From NCBI GenBank assembly GCA_916610825.1, contig OU744451.1, positions 18,935,482 to 18,999,481 on the forward strand: a stretch of 64,000 bases of DNA. The letters are read 5' to 3'. Shown one piece after another: positions 31,193 to 57,918 of this stretch. Below the pieces are notes generated by a model that was given only the letters and a program-made list of their open reading frames with translations, had not been told where the DNA came from and ran no database searches. The DNA is from Haliclystus octoradiatus. Lineage: Eukaryota; Cnidaria; Staurozoa; Stauromedusae; Haliclystidae. Position numbers and translations under genes: made by a program. The stretch's first letter is position 1. The number at the start of each line of letters is the position of its first letter.

Positions 31193-31448
31193 CTATGCTA
31201 AACAGATACTTGATGTTATATTTGTCGGTACATGAGTGGCATTATCGGATATACCCTCATTAATAATTCTGAACTGAAACGTGTGTCGAAATTCTTCAAC
31301 AATGATAACAATTGCTCTTATAGTTACCGTGAGACCATTGATAATAGTAGCGAGGTAAGCGAAAACCAGTGATTCATCAATCAACAAGCTGAAAATCCAA
31401 AACAATCCAAGCATGGGACATAGGACAAGGAATGCCTTTATTGCCGAT
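31193..31448 (-). CDS. Receptor last exon: TM6, TM7 and C-terminus
   Basis: Phase-2 acceptor (TTTTACAG) joining the previous exon as EIRK-SAIKAF. TM6 is AFLVLCPMLGLFWIF, matching the adhesion/secretin LxPLLGxxW pattern. After a short loop, TM7 is VFAYLATIINGLTVTIRAIVII. About 30 residues of cytoplasmic tail follow (EEFRHTFQF ... SSICLA) before TAG. The tail is short for an adhesion GPCR. Confidence 0.82.

Positions 31449-57918: not shown

Follow-up and report, generated by a model that had tools for sequence, protein, structure and literature searches.

The locus described here raises the question of whether a seven-transmembrane (7TM) receptor of composite, adhesion-like build can be genuinely free of a GPS and, if so, what kind of receptor it would be. 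The window, a stretch of 64,000 bases of the Haliclystus octoradiatus genome (C7:18935482-18999481), carries a first-pass annotation that had read from its letters a large minus-strand receptor with a signal peptide, VWC-like, sushi-like and LDLa-like modules, a complete 7TM bundle and no visible GPS. We followed this reading through the window and through the whole genome, of which 261,861,806 bases in 33 contigs were searched. Its mitochondrial COX1 reads best, by eye, when TGA is taken as Trp, ATA as Ile and AGR as Arg, which is the code of cnidarians and sponges.

The predicted receptor gene has 17 minus-strand exons between 57918 and 31193 and encodes 706 aa in a frame that is open throughout, with a start ATG at 57918, a stop codon ending at 31193 and GT-AG borders in 16 of 16 introns. 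The start, the stop and the chaining of exons by splice site and phase thus stand as first proposed, in a single open frame. The module order stands in part: the exons that had been named exist, but five had been missed (E1, E2, E3, E4 and F2), and the LDLa module is separated from TM1 by an HRM-like module and further stalk exons. The order as now predicted is signal peptide, VWC-like half, cysteine-rich module, degenerate LDLa, HRM-like module, stalk and 7TM, with introns of ~5-6 kb parting some of the exon blocks. The exons of the gene, and the one exon of a neighbouring copy found within the window, are as follows.

57756-57918, minus strand: exon A, start codon(s) and signal-peptide-like segment; phase 0 to 1
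56028-56159, minus strand: exon B, N-terminal half of a VWC-like module, 5 Cys; phase 1 to 1
50376-50570, minus strand: exon C, cysteine-rich module without a Pfam name; phase 1 to 1
49547-49684, minus strand: exon D, LDLa-like module without the third LDLa cysteine; phase 1 to 1
47086-47199, minus strand: exon E1, first half of the HRM-like module; phase 1 to 1
46884-46996, minus strand: exon E2, second half of the HRM-like module; phase 1 to 0
45857-46030, minus strand: exon E3, helix-like, at the expected place of GAIN subdomain A; phase 0 to 0
40589-40671, minus strand: exon E4, second helix-like exon; phase 0 to 2
35241-35334, minus strand: exon F, stalk, without Cys; phase 2 to 0
34726-34767, minus strand: exon F2, stalk, 14 aa, without Cys; phase 0 to 0
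34493-34626, minus strand: exon G, final stalk residues and TM1, without a GPS
33702-33816, minus strand: exon H, TM2
33420-33573, minus strand: exon I, TM3 and second intracellular loop
33266-33332, minus strand: exon J, TM4
33082-33142, minus strand: exon K, second extracellular loop and first half of TM5; 1.3e-4 with paralog e
31631-31716, minus strand: exon L, second half of TM5 and third intracellular loop; 0.017 with paralog e
31193-31448, minus strand: exon M, TM6-TM7, short tail and stop
10976-11107, minus strand: exon B of a ~98% identical neighbour, whose other found exons lie outside the window

A 13-exon chain of 546 aa, which has a full-length Pfam 7tm_2 match, was dropped because five exons are absent from it and one that it includes, 41819-41774, is not conserved. 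That exon, probably the one first placed near 41.9 kb, is spurious; it was rejected because none of the four paralogs compared matches it at E up to 0.2-0.3 and because a 73% similar stretch occurs on another chromosome (E 0.118). Codon-usage scoring of the window exons was uninformative, as confident exons scored no better than background.

Exons G to M encode the complete 7TM bundle that had been claimed, and the predicted protein gives a full-length match to Pfam 7tm_2 (1.4e-32, profile positions 3-244 of 250). The solved structures nearest to this bundle are ADGRL3, ADGRL2 and ADGRD1, ahead of the secretin-type receptors. In profile scores over TM1-TM4, ADGRL3 reaches 84 bits, ADGRD1 66, the CRF receptors 61 and the secretin receptor 52; the CRF receptors rank straight after ADGRL and ADGRD1, with a match that starts slightly further upstream of TM1. 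Ranked by match score alone, the predicted 7TM is closer to adhesion than to secretin receptors.

The receptor does not stand alone. When the genome was searched with the ectodomain, matches to exons C and D fell along C7 at 18.77-18.99 and 20.15-20.84 Mb; among the matches listed, those off C7 were few and weak (E 0.003 or worse). These two stretches of C7 hold thirteen 7tm_2 places between them, exons C and D repeatedly precede a 7TM place along it, and exon D takes 14 distinct forms in the fetched loci. The predicted family comprises about 14 tandem copies on one chromosome, some of them possibly broken. Four paralogs (a, d, e and g) were compared with the window gene by tblastn, which ties exons E1, E2, E3, G, H, I and J to all four, either directly or via another paralog. 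Exon order is kept from D to J in paralogs e and a, and in g and d from E1 to J. Each exon could be given a spliceable counterpart in all four paralogs, with the phases imposed by the search, and identity to the window protein is 47% for g, 36% for e, 38% for a and 36% for d.

The nearest copy is ~98% identical and has all exons from B to M, its E4 being one codon longer and its stop five codons earlier, and its parts are spread over ~120 kb. Its comparison with the window gene gives a dN/dS of 0.78 (9 synonymous and 26 non-synonymous changes), a value without clear constraint. Among its parts, at C7:18917240-18919089, exons A and B recur as an inverted and nearly identical copy, and given this inversion the neighbouring copy may be rearranged or broken.

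Several repeats were also recorded in the window. A segmental duplication links 5794-11475 with 53141-56534 in four aligned pieces that are 87-95% identical, and it carries exon B together with an unidentified reading frame without a Pfam match. Positions 1-2331 and 2574-4904 are 100% identical over 2,331 bases and contain long SIYL-coding repeats, an identity that reflects either a very recent duplication or an assembly artefact; a reverse transcriptase frame lies at 3967-2576 on the minus strand (RVT_1 8.8e-34). The intron between D and E1 holds a TAT/ATT triplet array of ~800-900 bases (window ~48400-49250). A short dispersed repeat, 76-84% identical and present in both orientations, occurs at 37188-37445, 40884-41194 and 50621-50924, and this repeat is found in introns of paralog g as well.

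Exon A, the signal-peptide-like first exon, is present where the first-pass annotation had put it and is known from only two nearly identical copies, with a 96% copy at C7:18917240(+), followed ~1.6 kb later by a copy of exon B; translation may in fact start at the Met of MDSISRYYLSIILHLGVIIFL. Exon B, of which the fetched loci hold 7 forms, can be kept as a VWC-like half, but Pfam VWC finds no match in the window sequence itself. The same profile matches two of three paralog B-C composites (2.2e-4 and 1.4e-3), both below threshold, the better reaching 21.9 of 27.6 bits. The sushi-like label of exon C is not supported by profile: no Pfam Sushi match was obtained in the window, the spliced protein or the five paralog sequences scanned. 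Exon C follows the pattern C..P....C..W..GC.Y.C...WCQ...C...CP, the positions of which are invariant in 14 distinct forms from the fetched loci; the HRM itself is described as having an SCR-like core (PMC3776922). Exon D of the window protein does match Ldl_recept_a (0.0014), but the match is partial (profile positions 20-37 of 37) and, at 19.3 of 24.1 bits, under the curated cut-off. By eye, the third LDLa cysteine is missing in all 14 of the distinct exon D forms from the fetched loci, and one of the two paralog forms scanned passes the Pfam cut-off (29.9 bits). A Methuselah_N ectodomain gave no Pfam match at E up to 10 in the window or the spliced protein, which is weak evidence by itself because non-arthropod Methuselah-type members are also without that ectodomain (PMC4768249).

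The two exons that follow the LDLa-like module, E1 and E2, carry the HRM pattern C..W..T..A..C..G..R.C..W..C, the residues of which are invariant in the five members compared, as are five cysteines of these exons. Pfam HRM matches two of the five members (best 0.0012); the match in paralog e (0.0017) stays below the Pfam cut-off at 19.1 of 26.2 bits, and the window's own copy gives no match. A genome-wide HRM search returned ten places, with the family absent among the matches listed; such a search may miss an HRM that is split by an intron. The tblastn links of E1 join the window gene, d, e and a with one another and with g, and those of E2 join the same four, with paralog g at 4.4e-14. E3 is found in g at 1.5e-12 and is significant between a and e and between d and e, with only 0.2 between the window and e.

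E4 is matched in g at E=0.001 and is 98.8% identical in the nearest copy, and in e, d and a it is proposed from position, phase and splice sites only. F is matched in e (0.007), in g (0.002) and weakly in a (1.7), and is placed in d by position only; F2 is matched in g (0.008) and between d and e (0.01), is 97.6% identical in the nearest copy, and is placed in a by position only. Over E1 to F2, the two comparisons made with the window gene give pS values of 0.73 and 0.83 against pN values of 0.35 and 0.46, the pattern that coding exons under constraint should show. By eye E3 and E4 look helical, and they occupy the expected site of GAIN subdomain A; Pfam GAIN gave no match in the window protein or the five members, and a profile of the segment from HRM to TM1 matched nothing meaningful in the PDB. 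The C-Q-C in E4 of the window gene is accompanied by none of the W, GC or HL/T that a GPS would have, and only the nearest copies share it. In the predicted window protein ~160 aa separate the end of the HRM from the 7TM match. The HRM-to-TM1 distance is ~280-330 aa in the HRM-GAIN-7TM receptors of choanoflagellates and filastereans, and is said to be comparable to that of animals (PMC12716839).

The claim that no GPS is visible was borne out in the window. With a rough, hand-typed GPS profile, the best score among 2,763 ORFs of at least 15 aa in six frames was 7.9 bits, as against 62 and 50 bits for the positive controls, two canonical receptors of the same genome. A GPS exon was sought between 35.3 and 41.9 kb in particular, and none was found there. 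Two GPS-like peptides, at 41923-41801 and ~40475-40328, were rejected, scoring 3.7 and -0.4 bits against the GPS profile, which is noise, and having no match among the compared paralogs. A loose GC..C.C pattern was seen twice in the window against a mean of 0.0 in 100 shuffles, a result that speaks mildly against the GPS-less reading; we do not rely on it because the null is simple and because the two matches are these same noise-level peptides.

The same absence marks the family as a whole. At E up to 1, Pfam GPS matches 36 genomic places, of which 35 exceed its cut-off. On the same strand and within 30 kb upstream, a GPS accompanies 0 of the 13 family 7TM places as opposed to 30 of 43 other 7tm_2 clusters (Fisher p 5.5e-6, where neither the tandem copies nor all of the clusters are independent genes). 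The clusters group the 77 genomic 7tm_2 places by shared strand and gaps under 4 kb and are not verified genes; some of those outside the family whose GPS is 7-11 kb away may represent later exons of an adjacent gene that has been counted before. For 13 outside clusters no GPS was found: seven single-frame clusters (eight places), the gene at C5:3.0 Mb nearest to secretin receptors, one ADGRA-like gene and four further clusters.

Exon structure points the same way. In two canonical genes one reading frame holds the GPS (in one of them, minus its first residues) and TM1 and stops after TM1, in the phase in which exon G also ends; exon G, the TM1 exon of the window gene, begins ~17 aa upstream of the 7TM match. 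The window introns F-F2 (473 bases) and F2-G (99 bases) contain no phase-0 candidate exon having at least two Cys. Among the seven F-F2 and F2-G stretches scanned in four genes (both stretches of the window gene, g and e, and one of d), four hold candidates with at least two Cys, all in g, e and d, and by eye none of these is GPS-like or recurring. In the five members F, F2 and the part of G before TM1 contain no Cys, and by eye the three exons contain no HL/T and no Stachel-like T-x-F-x-x-L-M peptide. The composite adhesion-like receptor without a GPS is thus supported, and what had been said of one gene is true of a tandem family.

Other 7tm_2 genes of the genome deserve mention in their own right. 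The HRM of a gene at C5:3001500-3009500 exceeds the Pfam cut-off (27.8 bits), no GPS was found for this gene, and its TM3 exon is nearest to the secretin and GIP receptors among solved structures (0.0033); it is a candidate for a secretin-family receptor in the cnidarians, which are said to have none. Eight 7tm_2 places at C8:15.93-15.95, C2:24.80-24.83 and C8:9.60 Mb are single long frames of 743-1014 aa with no GPS match nearby, and the two that were read look Methuselah-like in TM3. A further 7tm_2 gene at C8:16619500-16628500 is ADGRA-like by eye and has a GPS-like W..C..C peptide that the GPS profile missed.

The same observations can be read in other ways. The N-terminal exons might form a separate gene for a secreted protein, with the 7TM exons alone making up the receptor, and the ~5-6 kb introns that part some blocks would suit such an arrangement; but with D to J in order in paralogs e and a, E1 to J in order in g and d, and C and D repeatedly ahead of 7TM places along the chromosome, we regard two genes as very improbable. 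Nor is the receptor likely to be a true secretin-family (class B1) member with extra N-terminal modules, in which that membership would account for an HRM without a GPS. An HRM-like module without a GPS is indeed what secretin receptors have (PMC3776922), and the CRF receptors come next after ADGRL and ADGRD1, matching from slightly further upstream of TM1. Against this, the 7TM scores place ADGRL3 (84 bits) and ADGRD1 (66) above the CRF (61) and secretin (52) receptors, and the gene with the TM3 exon nearest to secretin receptors is a different one, at C5:3.0 Mb. The stalk of ~160 aa is also far longer than that of secretin receptors.

The receptor might also be an ordinary adhesion receptor, the GPS of which was missed because it is divergent or sits in an unrecognised exon, and some facts lean towards this. 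GAIN sequences are poorly conserved (PMC11697300), the GPS-like peptide at C8:16.6 Mb escapes the GPS profile, so that by profile alone a strongly degenerate GPS is possible, and in silico a phase-compatible alternative exon can be drawn at 40475-40328. This exon, however, scores at noise; GPS and TM1 share a frame in the two canonical genes and exon G starts ~17 aa before the 7TM match, the window introns F-F2 and F2-G are without a phase-0 candidate having at least two Cys, and the seven such stretches of four genes offer nothing GPS-like or recurring by eye. We consider a hidden GPS improbable.

The reading that we prefer is that of a probable family of adhesion-derived class B (7tm_2) seven-pass plasma-membrane receptors in a cnidarian, non-cleaving, secretin-like in layout and presumably activated by ligands that move the stalk. 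Its likeness to the adhesion GPCRs ADGRL (latrophilin) and ADGRD1 lies in the class B 7TM, the modular ectodomain and the HRM-like module before a juxtamembrane stalk, an HRM being present in latrophilins. It differs from them in that no GPS was found and no GAIN or Stachel peptide is detectable, and in the VWC-like, unnamed Cys-rich and LDLa-like modules that precede its HRM-like module. With the secretin family (class B1) it shares a putative HRM and the absence of a recognisable GPS, but its 7TM is nearer to adhesion receptors, it has three more N-terminal modules, and its stalk is ~160 aa, whereas the secretin-receptor stalk is much shorter. Human ADGRA1 is a single receptor rather than an expanded modular family and is not known to have the ectodomain of the window receptor. 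What the two have in common is an adhesion-type 7TM, with no GAIN detected by profile in the window receptor and none reported for ADGRA1 (PMC11697300).

More distant animals offer further parallels. Amphioxus has adhesion GPCRs with LDLa, SRCR, somatomedin B and kringle modules, many of which keep the GPS, and LDLa-type modules are said to be absent from mammalian adhesion receptors (PMC2246102). The amphioxus receptors resemble the window receptor in joining an adhesion-type 7TM to LDLa-type modules, and no mention of the window's module order was found for them. In the sponge Amphimedon, 12 of 40 adhesion GPCRs are without a GPS, and models without a GPS or N-terminal domains may be incomplete (PMC4302439); these, too, are non-bilaterian 7tm_2 receptors without a GPS, whereas the modular ectodomain of the window receptor has been traced exon by exon. 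We found no description of its module order or family in the open-licence literature, and the texts examined on cnidarian peptide receptors make no mention of secretin, class B or adhesion.

From the missing GPS and Stachel-like peptide we infer that receptors of this family would neither cleave themselves nor carry a tethered agonist of the adhesion type. In place of a Stachel peptide, ligands bound to the ectodomain, as in secretin receptors, or movement of the stalk would bring about activation. In the mechanism that we propose, GAIN subdomain B, the GPS and the tethered agonist would have been lost together, so that the HRM-like module would now sit on a shortened stalk, which may retain helices resembling GAIN subdomain A. 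The divergent cysteine modules and the HRM would bind ligand, binding would shift the stalk against the 7TM core, and the core would couple to a G protein, much as secretin-type receptors do. That the family has expanded in tandem suggests ligands that differ from copy to copy.

It has been proposed that secretin receptors branched off from adhesion receptors in bilaterians, after cnidarians had split away (PMC4302439). A more tentative scenario, which we hold to be possible though somewhat doubtful, is that GAIN subdomain B and the GPS disappeared in a cnidarian lineage, which kept the HRM and a GAIN-A-like stalk and then multiplied the resulting receptor in tandem, with soluble or cell-bound ligands activating its receptors without a cleaved tethered agonist; it would represent an independent, half-way version of the origin of secretin receptors. 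If true, this would be a second, testable case of GPS loss, in a cnidarian family with an HRM-like module and a shortened stalk, and the family would be a natural set of receptors for asking how an adhesion-type 7TM signals without a tethered agonist.
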